Shown: positions 35,987 through 49,874 of the stretch, in pieces | Layout: every line of letters starts with the position of its first letter | How positions within the stretch are numbered: the stretch's first letter is position 1 | NCBI GenBank assembly: GCA_021199235.1 | Contig: JAJQIL010000098.1 | Location: forward strand, 1-50,543 | DNA from: Lachnospiraceae bacterium | Lineage (GTDB): Bacteria; Bacillota; Clostridia; Lachnospirales; Lachnospiraceae | Direction: 5' to 3' | DNA length: 50,543 nt | The notes under the pieces: generated by a model | What the model saw: the letters and a program-made list of their open reading frames with translations, nothing else | Database searches by the model: none | What the model was told of the DNA's origin: nothing | Made by a program: the position numbers and the translations under genes

Positions 35987-37951
35987 ATGCAGATCAGATA
36001 TGGGATTGTGACAGCACAGAACTGCTTTTTACATGGAAATAACAGCGGGATAGAAGATGAGGTTTTTTCCGGCTGGGCGGTTCGGGTCTTCCCGGGGACG
36101 GAAGAGAATGGCCGGGTAAAAATTGAGACCCATTATGGATACGAAGGGTATGTGTACAAAGACCAGCTTGCCCTGATCAGCCGGGAAACGCTTATCTGCA
36201 GGCAGGACAAGACCCGCTTTTTCCGTATAGGAGTCTCTGCTGCGGATGTGCTGGATCAGCCGAAGGTGCAGGGACTGCTTCTGGAGCGTCTGCTGAAAAA
36301 TTCAATCGTGGAGCGGGTGACCGAACCCTCTGACACAGACGGCTGGTGTCTCGTGCGCACGGCGGCCGGGGTTGTCGGCTATATGCATGAGAATTATCTG
36401 CGTAGGCGTCAGGATGACGACGGATATCTGCTGGAAATGGAAAGCCGGACAGAGCCGGAATTTCCGCAGAGGAAGACGCAGACAGAACCGGAAGTGCTGC
36501 AGAAAAAAACGCGGACAGAGCCGGAACCCATGCCGGCAGGAAACGAAAAAGGGAAAATGGAGAATTCGCCGGAGAACCTGACAGGGAACGGCCAGACCAC
36601 ATACTTCGAAAAACGATTTCGGGAGAATCCTCCGGAAGAGGAAAGCTTTCGTGACGGCGTAGTGCGAAGCGCCCGCTCTTATCTGGGGGTACAGTACCGC
36701 TGGGGAGGGAAATCCTCTCTGGGGCTGGACTGCTCCGGCCTCGCATTTATGAGTTATCTGGAAAACGGCGTTCTGATTTATCGCGATGCGAAGATAAAGC
36801 ACGGATATCCGATTTTTGAAATACCGCGGGAAAAGCTGAAACCGGGGGATCTGATTTTCTTCCCGGGACATGTGGCAATCTATCTGGGAGAAGGGCGTTA
36901 TATTCATTCGACCGGATACAAAAAAACTCCGTATGTCACTATCAACAGTCTGAACCCCGCGGATGAAGAGTATCGGGCGGATCTGGCGGCTTCAATCACA
37001 GCCTGCGGGAGCGTATTTTCAGCGTTGGAGCCTTCGTTTTGCTCAGGAACAGAACAGTTCGTTCATGAACGTTCGCTTCGCGAAGGACGAACCTCCGATC
37101 ATAAAAAATCCGTAACAATTTACGACGAAGATTCGCAGCAGCTGCAAAGACCGTCTGGACAGGATGATAAATTCGATCAATTCGAAGCCCTGCGCAGGCG
37201 TCTGAATGCGATGCCCGGCAATCTCAGTGCGGTATATAAAGATCTGACGACCGGAGAGTCATTTTCGTATCGGGCCAAAGAGCCGCATATTGCCGCGAGT
37301 GTGATCAAGCTGTTCTTGATGGCAGCAGTGTTTCAGGGATTTTCGGAGGGCTCTTTTTCTCCGGAAAAGCGGATTCTGATCCGGCGTGAGGACTGCGTGC
37401 CGTCCTGCGGGGTGCTGACGTATCTGCAGGGAGAATGCACAGTCAGTGTCCGTGATCTGACGGAGCTGATGATCATTGTCAGTGACAACACCGCTGCGAA
37501 TGTCCTGTTTGACCTGGTCGGGGAGGAACGTCTTGCGGAGTTTTTGTCGGATAAGCTCGGCCTGAAAAAGACGGTGTTCCGCAGAAAAATGTTTGATAAC
37601 AAGCGGGCCGCACAGGGAATCGAGAATTATGTGACAGCGGCGGACGCGGCCTGGCTGCTGGAGCGGATCTATAAAGGGGAACTGGTTTCCCGGGAGGCAT
37701 CAAAAGAAATGTATCAGATCCTGACGCACCAGCGGCTGAACGGTAAAATTCCGTTTTATCTGCACACCTTCGCCAATGCACCGGTGATCGCGCACAAGAC
37801 CGGTGAGGACAGCGGCGTCACGCATGACGTGGCCATAGTGGAAGGCGAGAGGCCGTTTGTGCTTTGCTTTCTTGGGAACGAAACAAATGTGGCGGACTAT
37901 GAACGGCTGATGGCGGAGACGGCACGGGATTTATATCTGAAAAGCTGGTAA
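35987..37951 (+). CDS. SH3-NlpC/P60 endopeptidase fused to a serine beta-lactamase-type domain
   Basis: 654 residues in order: two SH3-like domains (about 1-65 and 75-140); a Glu/Pro-rich linker; an NlpC/P60 domain with catalytic Cys249 (LDCSGL) and His295 (GHVAIYLG), as in YkfC, which cuts between D-Glu and the diamino acid of murein peptides; a second linker (about 345-395); and a class A beta-lactamase-like domain with S438-VIK, SDN near 499 and KTG near 604. No Glu166-type omega-loop is obvious, so D,D-peptidase activity seems likelier than antibiotic hydrolysis. There is no signal peptide, so it should work in the cytosol on imported peptides. I know of no common fusion of this kind. The second linker is partly encoded by palindromic DNA (37045-37092). 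Confidence 0.85.
   Translation: MQIRYGIVTAQNCFLHGNNSGIEDEVFSGWAVRVFPGTEENGRVKIETHYGYEGYVYKDQLALISRETLICRQDKTRFFRIGVSAADVLDQPKVQGLLLERLLKNSIVERVTEPSDTDGWCLVRTAAGVVGYMHENYLRRRQDDDGYLLEMESRTEPEFPQRKTQTEPEVLQKKTRTEPEPMPAGNEKGKMENSPENLTGNGQTTYFEKRFRENPPEEESFRDGVVRSARSYLGVQYRWGGKSSLGLDCSGLAFMSYLENGVLIYRDAKIKHGYPIFEIPREKLKPGDLIFFPGHVAIYLGEGRYIHSTGYKKTPYVTINSLNPADEEYRADLAASITACGSVFSALEPSFCSGTEQFVHERSLREGRTSDHKKSVTIYDEDSQQLQRPSGQDDKFDQFEALRRRLNAMPGNLSAVYKDLTTGESFSYRAKEPHIAASVIKLFLMAAVFQGFSEGSFSPEKRILIRREDCVPSCGVLTYLQGECTVSVRDLTELMIIVSDNTAANVLFDLVGEERLAEFLSDKLGLKKTVFRRKMFDNKRAAQGIENYVTAADAAWLLERIYKGELVSREASKEMYQILTHQRLNGKIPFYLHTFANAPVIAHKTGEDSGVTHDVAIVEGERPFVLCFLGNETNVADYERLMAETARDLYLKSW
37045..37092 (+). 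repeat. Palindromic segment in frame between the two enzyme domains
   Basis: Contains the perfect 12-base palindrome CGTTCATGAACG (37060-37071) and a hairpin GTTCG-CTTCGCGAAG-GA-CGAAC (37071-37092). The left part repeats the CAGAACAG / TTCGTTC motif of the intergenic palindrome at 32927. Confidence 0.65.
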
Positions 37952-37974
37952 CTGTTCAGTACCTTCACAGTTAC
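37948..37974 (-). repeat. 27-bp palindromic repeat, copy E (reverse orientation)
   Basis: Perfect arms GTAACTGT / ACAGTTAC with centre TCAGTACCTTC, the exact reverse complement of the consensus. The stop codon of the fusion gene (37949-37951) is inside the left arm. Confidence 0.9.
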
Positions 37975-43778: not shown

Positions 43779-43797
43779 TTAACAACCTAAATAATAT

Positions 43798-43826
43798 TTG
43801 AAATATATTATAATGTATGCTATAAT
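43798..43826 (+). promoter_or_regulatory. Strong promoter of the unknown overlapping gene pair
   Basis: TTGAAA at 43798-43803, 17-base spacer, TATAAT at 43821-43826, 42 bases before ATG 43868. Best match to the consensus in the window. Confidence 0.7.
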
Positions 43827-43867
43827 GCTTTTGAGATATTTTAAAGATGAGTGTTTCAGGAGGGATT

Positions 43868-44338
43868 ATGGCTGTAAGGAAAGAAAAGATAGTTTCTATG
43901 TTTAGAAACAGGAATGGGACATTGTTTATGCCGACAAAAAAAGAGGACAATATACGAAGGTTGAAAGAAATAGGACATTTGTCTGATGATTGGAACGGAT
44001 ATGGAGCAGGAGCGTTTTCTTCTGCTTTGATTGACAAATGCAATTCTATTATTAATGTACTTGATATTCAGCCGGATGTTTATCCGACAGGCAGACAAAG
44101 CATTCAAATGCAGTACGAACTGGCAGACAGAAGCTATCTTGAATTTGAAATTTTTGAAGACAAAACGTTGTGTCTGAAAGTTCCTCAACGTATCTATGCG
44201 AATGCCGCCACGATACAGATAACTGAAAATGAATCAGAAAGGATACGGGGGATTGTTGAAGACTTTTTTGGACACGGTACAGGAGAAAGAGACCCTTTAC
44301 AGACTGATCAAGCGCTCACAGCCAGATACTTTGGATGA
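43868..44338 (+). CDS. Unknown protein, first of an overlapping pair
   Basis: 156 residues; I do not recognise a named family. A distinctive core reads HLSDDWNGYGAGAFS, then VYPTGRQSIQMQYE and YLEFEIFED, a pattern I associate with small hypothetical proteins of gut bacteria. ATG 43868 has CAGGAGGGATT directly upstream; ATG 43847 has no ribosome site. The gene is clearly AT-richer than the flanking dapF and dapL, has its own strong promoter, and its last 110 bases overlap the next frame. This looks like a horizontally acquired two-gene cassette. Confidence 0.7.
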   Translation: MAVRKEKIVSMFRNRNGTLFMPTKKEDNIRRLKEIGHLSDDWNGYGAGAFSSALIDKCNSIINVLDIQPDVYPTGRQSIQMQYELADRSYLEFEIFEDKTLCLKVPQRIYANAATIQITENESERIRGIVEDFFGHGTGERDPLQTDQALTARYFG

Positions 44339-44657
44339 TCATGGAAATCCCACTTCTGCATTATTTAAGCAGGAAAATGGCGTTTCCGTAGACCGGGATG
44401 GCGGCAGAAAAGAAAATGCTGTAATTCGTACATTCAGGGAGCGGTTTTCAAAACGTTTTAAAGGACTGGCAAAAGTGCAGGCATCTGTTTGTCTGCAAAA
44501 TGATATGTATGTGCTTCCGGAACCGACAAGAGATAACATATATCATGCAAGCATTTATGAGGATGAAAACAGGCTGCCATTGAGCCAGCTTCATGCTCTT
44601 ATATTGGCAGATCATTCAGAAATTGTGGCATTTGAGCCAGAAGTAAAGTGGATATAA
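44229..44657 (+). CDS. Unknown protein, second of an overlapping pair
   Basis: Up to 142 residues, no recognised domain. It is basic in the middle (RTFRERFSKRFKGLAK) and acidic at the end. The start is uncertain: ATG 44229 lies inside the previous gene and lacks a ribosome site; TTG 44253 is another option, close behind ACGGGGGA. Translation is therefore probably coupled to the upstream gene. The content after 44338 reads as genuine coding sequence down to the TAA at 44655, followed by a 27-bp repeat. Confidence 0.6.
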   Translation: MNQKGYGGLLKTFLDTVQEKETLYRLIKRSQPDTLDDHGNPTSALFKQENGVSVDRDGGRKENAVIRTFRERFSKRFKGLAKVQASVCLQNDMYVLPEPTRDNIYHASIYEDENRLPLSQLHALILADHSEIVAFEPEVKWI

Positions 44658-44682: not shown

Positions 44683-44709
44683 TTAACTGTGAAAGTAATG
44701 AACAGTTAC
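44683..44709 (+). repeat. 27-bp palindromic repeat, copy F
   Basis: Arms TTAACTGT / ACAGTTAC, centre GAAAGTAATGA. It lies between the unknown pair and dapL, 20 bases before the dapL start. Confidence 0.85.
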
Positions 44710-46060: not shown

Positions 46061-46087
46061 GTAACTGTGAAGGGACTGAACAGTTAC
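46061..46087 (+). repeat. 27-bp palindromic repeat, copy G
   Basis: Perfect arms GTAACTGT / ACAGTTAC, centre GAAGGGACTGA. It lies 17 bases before the start of the MutS-like gene. Confidence 0.9.
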
Positions 46088-47946: not shown

Positions 47947-48864
47947 ATGGAATCTCGGAAAGAATTCCCGATAAAGTTGTATTGTATGACCACGGATGCG
48001 CTGAATGATCCGGAGACATTCCGGAAGCACTATCTGGAGATGCCGGAGGGACGGCGTGCAAAGATTGACCGGGTGCGGATGGAGCAGGATAAAAAGCTTT
48101 CTCTTGCGGCGGGGATTCTGCTCGACCGGGGTCTGCAGGAATTCAACTTAAGCGGGAAAACGATCCGTATAGAGGAAAGCGCATATGGAAAACCATTCTT
48201 TCCGGACTTTCCGAATATCCATTTCAGCCTTTCCCATTCGCATGAGATGGCGCTGGCGGTCTTTGCTGATACTGAGGTCGGATGTGATATTGAATATCGA
48301 AAAAAGCCGAATGAAAAGCTGGCCGGACGTTTTTTCTGCCCGGAGGAGAATGCCTGGATGACAGCTGCCCGGACGGAAACGGAGCGGAAGGAACGCTTTT
48401 ATCGCCTCTGGACGCTGAAAGAGAGCTTTATCAAGGCGACGGGGCAGGGACTGCGTCAGCCTCTGGACTCGTTTTGCTTTCGGATTGAGGAAACCTGCGT
48501 CCTGCAATCAGAGATGAGGGGCAAAACCCGGCGAGGGAATATTCCGGTGGAAGTGCCCCCTCGCAGTAGCTCGGCGGCAGGGTCTCCGCTGCCGCTTCGG
48601 TCCGCGCAAAACGTCTCCGCTTCGCTCCGGACGGTGCTAAACGAACATCCACTGGATGTTCAGCACCGTCCACTGGACGATCAGCGCCGCGCCGCCCATG
48701 AGAGAAACGCTTTGCGTTTGGGCGGCGCTGCCGTGGAGATTCGGCGCAGGAACAGTTCTGTGGAGGTCACGCAGATCTTTGATCAGGCGGAGTATGTGTT
48801 TGAGGAATATCTGATTGGCGGAGACGGAGAATATTGTGCGGCTGTGTGCCTGCGCAGCCAATGA
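47947..48864 (+). CDS. 4'-phosphopantetheinyl transferase (Sfp type) with large insertion
   Basis: Transfers phosphopantetheine from CoA to carrier proteins. It has the Sfp motifs HFSLSHSHEMALAVF, VGCDIEY with Mg-binding D114 and E116, and WTLKESFIKATG with E159. Usual size is about 220-230 residues; this protein has 305. The excess (about residues 190-270) is a basic, low-complexity stretch encoded by at least four DNA hairpins, after which the normal C-terminus (EYVFEEYLIGGDGEYCAAV) resumes in the same frame. Whether the enzyme still works is open. No carrier protein or synthase is encoded nearby. Start ATG 47947 has only a moderately placed GAAAGG. Confidence 0.85.
   Translation: MESRKEFPIKLYCMTTDALNDPETFRKHYLEMPEGRRAKIDRVRMEQDKKLSLAAGILLDRGLQEFNLSGKTIRIEESAYGKPFFPDFPNIHFSLSHSHEMALAVFADTEVGCDIEYRKKPNEKLAGRFFCPEENAWMTAARTETERKERFYRLWTLKESFIKATGQGLRQPLDSFCFRIEETCVLQSEMRGKTRRGNIPVEVPPRSSSAAGSPLPLRSAQNVSASLRTVLNEHPLDVQHRPLDDQRRAAHERNALRLGGAAVEIRRRNSSVEVTQIFDQAEYVFEEYLIGGDGEYCAAVCLRSQ
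48531..48728 (+). repeat. Cluster of palindromic hairpins in frame inside the PPTase gene
   Basis: Four hairpins. 48531-48564: GCGAGGG / CCCTCGC with inner TTCC-GGT-GGAA. 48574-48595: GCGGCAG / CTGCCGC. 48629-48671: outer GGACGGTGCT / AGCACCGTCC, 5' bulge AAAC, inner GAACATCCA / TGGATGTTC with loop C. 48689-48728: outer GCGCCGCCC / GGGCGGCGC, 5' bulge, inner AAACGC / GCGTTT with loop TTT. All are translated in frame. Confidence 0.9.
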
Positions 48865-48889
48865 AAAAGGATAAAATATCGAGCGCCTG

Positions 48890-48923
48890 TTCGGGACAGT
48901 TTCCCGCATTTGCTGCGGGGAAC
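48890..48923 (+). repeat. TTCGGGACA hairpin with TTTGC loop, copy 2
   Basis: TTCGGGACA, then GTTTCCCGCA (48899-48908) and TGCGGGGAAC (48914-48923) around TTTGC; one G-T pair. Its arms differ from copy 1 at four positions, each matched on the other side. Confidence 0.75.
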
Positions 48924-48956
48924 GAAACAGAATACAGGAAAAAGGAGCAGCAGAGT

Positions 48957-49874
48957 ATGAAAAAACCGGTACTGGTAGTGATGGCGGCGGGTATGGGCAG
49001 CCGTTACGGAGGATTGAAACAGATTGACCCGGTCGATCCGGAAGGGCATATTATCATGGACTTTTCTGTCTATGACGCCGTCCGTGCCGGATTTGAAAAG
49101 GTGATTTTCATTATCAAACGGGAAAATGAGGCGGATTTTCGCACAGCCATCGGCGATCGCCTCGCCGGGCACATTGAAGTGAAATATGTGTATCAGGAGC
49201 TTACAAATCTTCCGGAAGGGTTTTCTGTTCCAGAAGGCCGTGTGAAGCCGTGGGGGACCGGGCATGCTGTCTTAAGCTGCCAGGGAGCGGCGGACGGTCC
49301 GATGGTCGTTATCAACGCGGATGATTTTTATGGAAGAAATGCGTTTGCGCTGGCGTATGATTTTCTCACACGGAAAGAGGAAGCTGCAGGCCGCTATATG
49401 ATGGTCGGCTATCGTCTGGAAAACACACTTACGGAGAACGGGTCTGTGGCGCGCGGCGTCTGCAGCACGGATGAGAATGGTTATCTGAAAACGATCACAG
49501 AGCGTACCAGCATTGAACGGCATGGCGACAAGATTGCATACACAGAGGACGGCGGCGCAGGCTGGACAGAGCTTTCTCCGGATACTACCGTTTCTCTGAA
49601 TATGTGGGGTTTTTCCGAAGATATTCTTACAGAACTGAACGAGCGCTTCCGGGCGTTTCTTGCGGAAAATCTGCCGAAAAATCCATTAAAATGTGAGTAT
49701 TTTCTGCCTTTTGTCGTGGATGAGCTGCTGACAGAAGGGAAGGCGACTGTGAAAGTCGAGAAAACTCCGGATAAATGGTACGGGGTAACCTATAAAGAAG
49801 ACAAGCCGGCACTGATGGCGGCAATTCAGAAGATGAAGGATGAAGGGCTTTACCCGCAGAAGCTGTGGGAGTGA
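48957..49874 (+). CDS. Nucleotidyltransferase-family protein (sugar-1-phosphate type)
   Basis: 305 residues with a Rossmann-like nucleotidyltransferase fold: N-terminal VVMAAGMGSRYGGLKQIDPV, the hallmark of the NTP_transferase family, and the metal-binding NADDFYGRNAF. Family members join a nucleotide to a sugar phosphate; this subgroup is often seen as single genes and the substrate is unknown. ATG 48957 follows AAAAAGGAGCAG; the longer frame from TTG 48834 would overlap the PPTase gene and has no family support. Confidence 0.82.
   Translation: MKKPVLVVMAAGMGSRYGGLKQIDPVDPEGHIIMDFSVYDAVRAGFEKVIFIIKRENEADFRTAIGDRLAGHIEVKYVYQELTNLPEGFSVPEGRVKPWGTGHAVLSCQGAADGPMVVINADDFYGRNAFALAYDFLTRKEEAAGRYMMVGYRLENTLTENGSVARGVCSTDENGYLKTITERTSIERHGDKIAYTEDGGAGWTELSPDTTVSLNMWGFSEDILTELNERFRAFLAENLPKNPLKCEYFLPFVVDELLTEGKATVKVEKTPDKWYGVTYKEDKPALMAAIQKMKDEGLYPQKLWE

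Follow-up and report, generated by a model that had tools for sequence, protein, structure and literature searches.

What is the hairpin-rich DNA that lies in frame within a phosphopantetheinyl transferase gene of a Lachnospiraceae bacterium, and how did it get there? The window, the whole stretch of 50,543 nt that was analyzed, is one of the 161 contigs of a 3.47-Mb draft genome that is 95% complete, and the locus is near its end. The host gene (47947–48864, + strand, 305 codons) was assigned to the Sfp-type 4′-phosphopantetheinyl transferases (PPTase) from the ORF list, Pfam and NCBIfam: Pfam ACPS matched residues 111–183 (E 2.3e-17), and NCBIfam PPTase models matched the gene, each under its curated cut-off. 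Prediction of the PPTase structure from the single sequence gave a mean pLDDT of 31 and no usable fold. A sequence-only reading had proposed mobile palindromes that tolerate insertion into genes and are comparable in behaviour to Rickettsia palindromic elements (RPE).

PPTase orthologues were sought by protein search, which returned matches in 30 of 41 genomes, and 11 of them were aligned. In G014, a genome of the same genus, protein and DNA alignments revealed an empty site within surrounding sequence that was present. The blastn pieces 48184–48548 and 48732–49870 abut in G014 DNA, so that the whole insert relative to this empty site is 48549–48731 (+ strand; blastn and alignments), 183 nt or 61 codons in frame. 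The G010 and G015 orthologues are even shorter than that of G014 in the alignment. The G008 PPTase, with 87% protein identity, has most of the insert, and the head has diverged there. The reading frame, said earlier to be kept on both sides, is open through the whole gene in the ORF list. An extra segment of ∼80 residues had also been claimed: the segment is real, but it amounts to 61 codons when compared with G014, and ∼80 are reached only against shorter orthologues (e.g., G010), because a 54-nt variable stretch upstream of the insert (48493–48546, + strand) is shared with G014 and absent from G008 and G010. The alignment indicates that this stretch is a change separate from the insert.

A search of the own genome with a 198-nt query gave 36 matching places at E ≤ 0.001, which involved different sub-segments, and copies set side by side resolved into two families. 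Family A is a palindrome of 52–55 nt (40 copies examined: 54 nt in 19, and 52, 53 or 55 nt in 21). It reads TCTCCGCTnCGCTCCGGTC, then GGCGCT-AAAC-Gnnnn(T)CC-ACT-GG(A)nnnnC-AGCGCC, a hairpin with a 6-bp lower stem, a 5′ AAAC bulge, an upper stem and a 3-nt loop. Family B (75–78 nt) has two hairpins. It starts with (TGGAAAC)GCCCCCTCGCnnnnGCTCGGCGGCAG and the imperfect hairpin comes first; in the second hairpin, a lower stem of 9 bp is followed by a bulge on the 5′ side and by an upper stem built around CGCTTCGCG. Another unit, C, makes B 39 nt longer at the loci C23:122845, C23:125974 and C59:11374, and is also found in the B copy at C157:48810. Covariance models were built from 14 copies of family A (R1) and 7 copies of family B (R2).

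In the stems of A, 98.9% of the cells were paired, with 17 doubly changed cells vs. 4.7 in shuffles (13 distinct copies). The values for B were 97.2% paired and 180 doubly changed cells vs. 37 in shuffles (51 copies) in an alignment that was fitted to the model and favours structure; the unfitted seven-copy alignment agrees (20 vs. 6). The 3′ arm of B took 23 different sequences in 27 copies, with a mean identity of 52%, and the first eight bases of the head had 90%. These comparisons show that pairing in the B stems is kept though the sequence varies. The lower stem, 5′-side bulge and upper stem with a tiny (3-nt) loop that had been described at the PPTase locus recur as two families with covarying pairs. 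Out of six frames, 4.58 were open in B vs. 4.22 (sd 0.13) in shuffles (50 copies), slightly above expectation, and 3.55 in A vs. 3.89 in shuffles (40 copies), below it.

The region 48511–48760 (250 nt) folded better than 200 of 200 dinucleotide shuffles (z −5.3). The two large hairpins reported earlier (48629–48671 and 48689–48728) are present at these places, the first with arms 48629–48642/48658–48671 and an inner stem 48643–48651/48653–48661, the second with arms 48686–48698/48719–48731. The first predicted stem is partly host sequence (48531–48537, paired with 48558–48564 inside the insert). The four hairpins counted earlier do not hold as equal units; the insert is instead a nest, B[A1[A2]], in which a palindrome B is split by a palindrome A (A1) and A1 by a second A (A2). 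Along the + strand, the predicted B head, GGAAGTGCCCCCTCGC..GCTCGGCGGCAG, with the imperfect first hairpin (48549–48580; split R2 match 48546–48590, weak, 37.5 bits), is followed by the 5′ part of A1 (48581–48613), the 54-nt A2 within A1 (48614–48667; R1 match 81.3 bits, E 6e-18), the 3′ part of A1, GTCCACTGGACGATCAGCGCC (48668–48688), and the second B hairpin with its lower stem, 5′ bulge, upper stem and TTT loop (48689–48731; R2 match and fold). The R2 match to this last hairpin covers 48688–48728 and model positions 38–78 (36.7 bits). Both parts of A1 were delimited by comparison of copies, and the A1[A2] composite also occurs at L002, L003 and L004. Family A is nested in B at other loci (L056, L059, L060, L002, L004, L005 and L008), L002 being a B that carries A1[A2] plus another A.

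Other repeats were seen alongside these families. Copies of B stand head to tail with a period of ∼78 nt in G021 (C52, C345 and C337), G008 (C72), G015 (C170) and G000 (C125:3890), and resemble in-frame tandem duplications; such tandem pairs are a minority of B copies. A repeated palindrome, TAACTGTTCAGTACCTTCACAGTTA, occurs in the window at 2851–2875, 37949–37973, 44684–44708 and 46062–46086 with 0–2 mismatches (0 in 100 shuffles), and a similar sequence adjoins the A copies of L046 and L054. The repeat GCGCAGAGCCGGGC...GCCGC(A/G)CCCGG is split by A at the same place in L042, L048 and L050, near 1420–1560. Rfam had no match in the window at gathering score; a weak GA-cis RNA match on the minus strand (48545–48622; 20.6 bits vs. 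a gathering score of 34.7) was taken as chance.

How widely are the families spread? At E ≤ 1e-5, R2 and R1 gave 75 B and 53 A matches in the own genome; the search for further copies called for by the earlier reading thus found them for both families. In a survey of 25 genomes of the genus, where up to 115 (B) or 144 (A) of the best candidates per genome were scored, B matches at E ≤ 1e-5 numbered at least 26–78 in 8 genomes and 2 in one, with none among the candidates scored in 16, and A matched in at least 24 of the 25. Neither family was detected at E ≤ 1e-5 among the candidates scored in 15 genomes from other families of the order. Within the family, B was found in at least 11 of 299 genomes, the own genome included (E ≤ 1e-6; up to 15 best candidates per genome). 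The titles of 80 of at least 108 public stretches that match the B pattern name Lachnospiraceae, Roseburia, Dorea, Petralouisia, Lachnoclostridium, Clostridiaceae or Clostridiales. Cultured carriers among these matches include Petralouisia muris and Roseburia sp. 1XD42-69. In viral contigs the B pattern had 0 matches and an A pattern a single one, on an IMG/VR contig (L299:11577–11597) that is perhaps a provirus of a carrier.

We compared 67 B and 40 A loci with 2.15 Mb of other sequence, ∼1.2 Mb of it from G008. Both flanks were found at 26 B loci, of which 14 had a gap in at least one relative, 8 were shared and 4 were partly rearranged. Leaving out the partly rearranged loci and C46:14923, whose gap relative to L144 was unreadable, there are 13 readable B empty sites beyond the window, 12 in G008 and C84:5887 in four public genomes. 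Empty sites in relatives, which the sequence-only reading had asked for, are hence on record for the PPTase gene (G014) and at 13 more sites for other B copies; the insert is neither confined to one place in its genome nor shared by all relatives. A separate indel was seen in the window at 43788–44630 (∼840 nt; two short ORFs, 43847–44338 and 44229–44657), which is absent from G008, where its flanks are 3 nt apart.

The 13 readable insertions add 72–81 nt. A common open frame crosses the junction at 9 of them, and the gain at these nine is always divisible by three: 78 nt at seven loci, 72 nt and 81 nt at one each. At eight of these nine loci both flanks (40 residues each) were 88–100% identical to the closest relative compared, and at the ninth, C30:36627, the flanks were 53% and 95% identical. 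In a PurL-type protein, for example, FAGEEHRDPTV of G008 becomes FAGEETPPRCASAADRVAHEENASRLGDSEEHRDPTV in the own genome. No common open frame was present over the stretch compared at 3 of the 13, C104:34636 (+75 nt), C157:23123 (+74 nt) and C157:49671 (+75 or +74 nt). At L103 (G000:C83:9960–10039), a B insertion of +76 nt is out of frame when compared with the G008 orthologue.

Most examined B copies sit inside long reading frames, and many of these are housekeeping genes. Among the 67 best copies (47.9 bits or more, the split window copy excluded, each given to the longer ORF), 43 lie in sense in stop-to-stop ORFs of at least 150 aa, 18 are antisense and 6 are neither. One phase, read much like ETPPR.ASAADR....ENASR, accounts for 34 of the 43 sense copies (binomial p 1e-9 vs. 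1/3, and 1.4e-7 vs. the openness of the three sense frames); the antisense copies, 18 of the 61 in long ORFs, are distributed over the phases as 6, 6 and 6. Public genomes provided 109 B heads with enough flank (at least 108 stretches), a sample that is independent of the own genome but not of its genus. Here, 75 heads were in ORFs of at least 200 aa, 54 of them in sense, and 44 of these 54 show the same phase as in the own genome.

When host ORFs of B were scanned, 37 of 40 matched Pfam families, many of them metabolic or DNA-repair. Sense hosts include riboflavin kinase/FAD synthetase (RibF), a PurL-type protein, NAD synthase (NadE) and delta-aminolevulinate dehydratase (HemB), members of the GH94, GH2, FGGY kinase, RACo, UPF0004 radical-SAM, PBP, M32 peptidase, GalT, WhiA and PriA families, and an AddA-like protein with an NCBIfam match under its cut-off. 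DnaX, HemD, MutL, a TRCF-domain helicase and alanine racemase are antisense hosts.

Family A behaves differently from the gene-dwelling B. From the 53 A copies, 40 were examined and 11 were in ORFs of at least 300 aa, 6 of the 11 nested in B; A is therefore mainly intergenic in this one genome and enters genes largely via B. At an orthologous site, C34:9517 vs. L245 of G008, the B copy has one A more here (+51 nt). Two other candidate empty sites of A are possibly paralogous and were not counted: C157:46613 vs. L245, with a near-full-length match including A in G008 (L268), and C9:39025 vs. L158, where the aligned pieces are just 66 and 107 nt long. Single cases hinted that A prefers hairpin loops as targets, but this was not supported over the 35 sites left after near-identical flanks had been removed (mean stem 3.89 vs. 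3.73, sd 0.19).

Taken together, the scattered copies, the empty sites, a frame that is retained at most sites that can be compared, compensatory pairing and nesting make it very probable that small non-autonomous mobile palindromes, nested in one another, form the insert: a gene-dwelling B and a mostly intergenic A that enters genes largely via B. The earlier proposal of mobile palindromes that tolerate insertion into genes is largely borne out, the likeness to RPE being one of behaviour. B (75–78 nt, two hairpins) would spread in the genome and survive inside protein-coding genes because its insertion usually adds whole codons without a stop, and the host protein would gain a hydrophilic peptide of ∼26 residues per B. 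A (52–55 nt, mostly intergenic) would get into genes largely by insertion into B. B would be under selection for pairing, and its insertions into genes would persist mostly when whole codons are added. Frame and phase suggest that the B peptide is translated, and it is presumably tolerated; the conserved hairpin may be what an enzyme encoded elsewhere recognises. At the PPTase gene, the absence in G014 is probably the original state, and B would have entered after the G014 split and, together with A1[A2], before the G008 split.

Elements of this kind are already known (RPE, the Wolbachia palindromic elements or WPE, and REPs), and A and B differ from them in size, structure, phylum and nesting. 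RPE and WPE are described as palindromic repeats that lie in frame in unrelated genes and encode peptide (PMC10969869, PMC2229807), and for addA, addB and priA there is a description of inserts that resemble WPE and keep the frame (PMC4224334). Likewise, B is in frame in many unrelated protein genes, among them a PriA-type and an AddA-like gene. The published size of RPE is 105–146 bp, and they have long stem-loops and 12-bp inverted repeats at the ends (PMC2229807). In contrast, B, as judged from that description, adds 75–78 nt at most sites, has two separate hairpins rather than the size and repeats of RPE, occurs in Lachnospiraceae and has A and C elements nested within it. GTAG and CGTC REPs are short hairpin repeats, some within replication and repair genes, and for the CGTC REPs that account knows of no dedicated transposase (PMC3733652); its main text has no mention of "Firmicutes" or "Clostridi". 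A and B are short hairpin repeats as well, with B copies in replication- and repair-type genes, but they have no constant GTAG or CGTC tag.

Bacterial MITEs with open frames, such as YPAL/RU-2 of Yersinia, ERIC and Correia, are likewise mobile palindromes whose frame is contiguous (PMC2229807). The same source describes YPAL as ∼168 bp, abundant between genes, with variable target duplications of 3–26 bp at or adjoining dyad symmetry (PMC2229807). B is shorter than YPAL/RU-2 and, in contrast, the examined copies are mostly within ORFs. PARCEL (palindromic amphipathic repeat coding elements), by its description, is palindromic coding DNA with a 25-residue motif that forms tandem arrays in unassigned or membrane-protein ORFs, and coding palindromes are also mentioned for an archaeon (PMC2996958). 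By this comparison of descriptions, B is likewise palindromic coding DNA, but most copies are solitary insertions into members of known gene families (Pfam matches in 37 of 40 hosts) rather than tandem repeats. What is new here is the presence in Bacillota and the nesting that brings a mostly intergenic palindrome into genes. Among the open-access papers listed in literature searches, we found no report of such elements in Lachnospiraceae.

What could move these palindromes? Filled and empty sites overlap at 6 of the 13 B sites by 6, 6, 6, 8, 9 and 14 nt, some imperfectly (TGAGGA, TCTGGA, GGCGCG, GCGGGGGA, TGCGCGGGT and a 14-mer), and the other 7 have no overlap. The upstream flank resembles the 3′ arm (mean 5.96 vs. 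4.86, sd 0.14, in shuffles; 67 copies), a similarity to which head-to-tail B copies contribute. No offset stands out as a fixed-register duplication (largest z 2.6 of 22 offsets, 29 copies, with a filter against head-to-tail copies that missed some, e.g., C125:3890 and C20:2868). We also considered whether the stem is copied from the target at each insertion, and rejected this because one and the same stem recurs at some loci (C47:17683, C47:17926 and C160:2993). The duplications are too irregular for naming a class of mover.

Two classes of mover are compatible with a nest of mobile palindromes. The elements could be MITEs of a DDE insertion sequence that makes 6–9-bp target duplications, a possible though somewhat unlikely origin: the six overlaps point to it, but their register is inconsistent, more than half of the sites have none, and no parent insertion sequence is known, Y1_Tnp being the sole transposase family searched. 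Movement as REPs, with single-stranded hairpins as the substrate of a RAYT or another transposase of the IS200/IS605 type, fits the hairpin with a 5′ bulge, the high copy number, the mostly intergenic A and the published intragenic REPs in repair genes (PMC3733652). We consider it distinctly unlikely, since a constant tag was not found (of 50 B copies, 10 have a tag-like 4-mer close to one end, and CGTC is at the 5′ end in 10 of 40 A copies) and Y1_Tnp is present in the draft genome only as an interrupted gene close to a contig end, in two neighbouring pieces and with an internal stop. The possible short target duplications at B sites also argue against it, as IS200/IS605 transposition, to our knowledge, makes none.

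The palindromes might instead be skipped or removed after transcription, in the manner of mitochondrial byps or of a very small intron, and no peptide would then be produced. Byps, translational bypassing elements, are small hairpins in mitochondrial genes, and stems are indeed conserved here within coding sequence. Skipping would not need the frame, yet all nine common-frame loci add multiples of three; one phase is strongly preferred in own and public genomes, and Rfam returned nothing at gathering score and one weak sRNA match, which renders this explanation very improbable. That the insert is a non-mobile, fast-evolving PPTase linker with palindromes from chance or GC bias is hardly credible: the stretch between catalytic domain and C-terminus does vary in length among orthologues, and L012 and L015 hold other extra sequence there, but the same DNA is found at dozens of other genome places, with empty sites and compensatory base changes.

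The nest of mobile palindromes may be part of something larger. Tentatively, and as a reading that we hold plausible rather than probable, these elements could form a tiered community of codon-quantised palindromes, in which B is gene-adapted, dispensable B is the landing place through which A (with a gain of 51 nt at a single orthologous site) and C (39 nt) reach essential genes, and a hairpin-reading activity moves them all. If so, hyperparasitism would be a standing route for new peptides into housekeeping proteins of gut Lachnospiraceae.

Rickettsia and Wolbachia, intracellular bacteria under weak selection, are the best-known hosts of selfish palindromes that insert in frame. Here, eight genomes of one Lachnospiraceae genus have 26–78 B matches each, in hemB, nadE and priA-type genes among others, and a sister species has near-identical proteins without B, which provides natural before-and-after pairs. 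With such filled and empty pairs, both the cost of a foreign peptide to a working protein and the way in which such elements move become testable.
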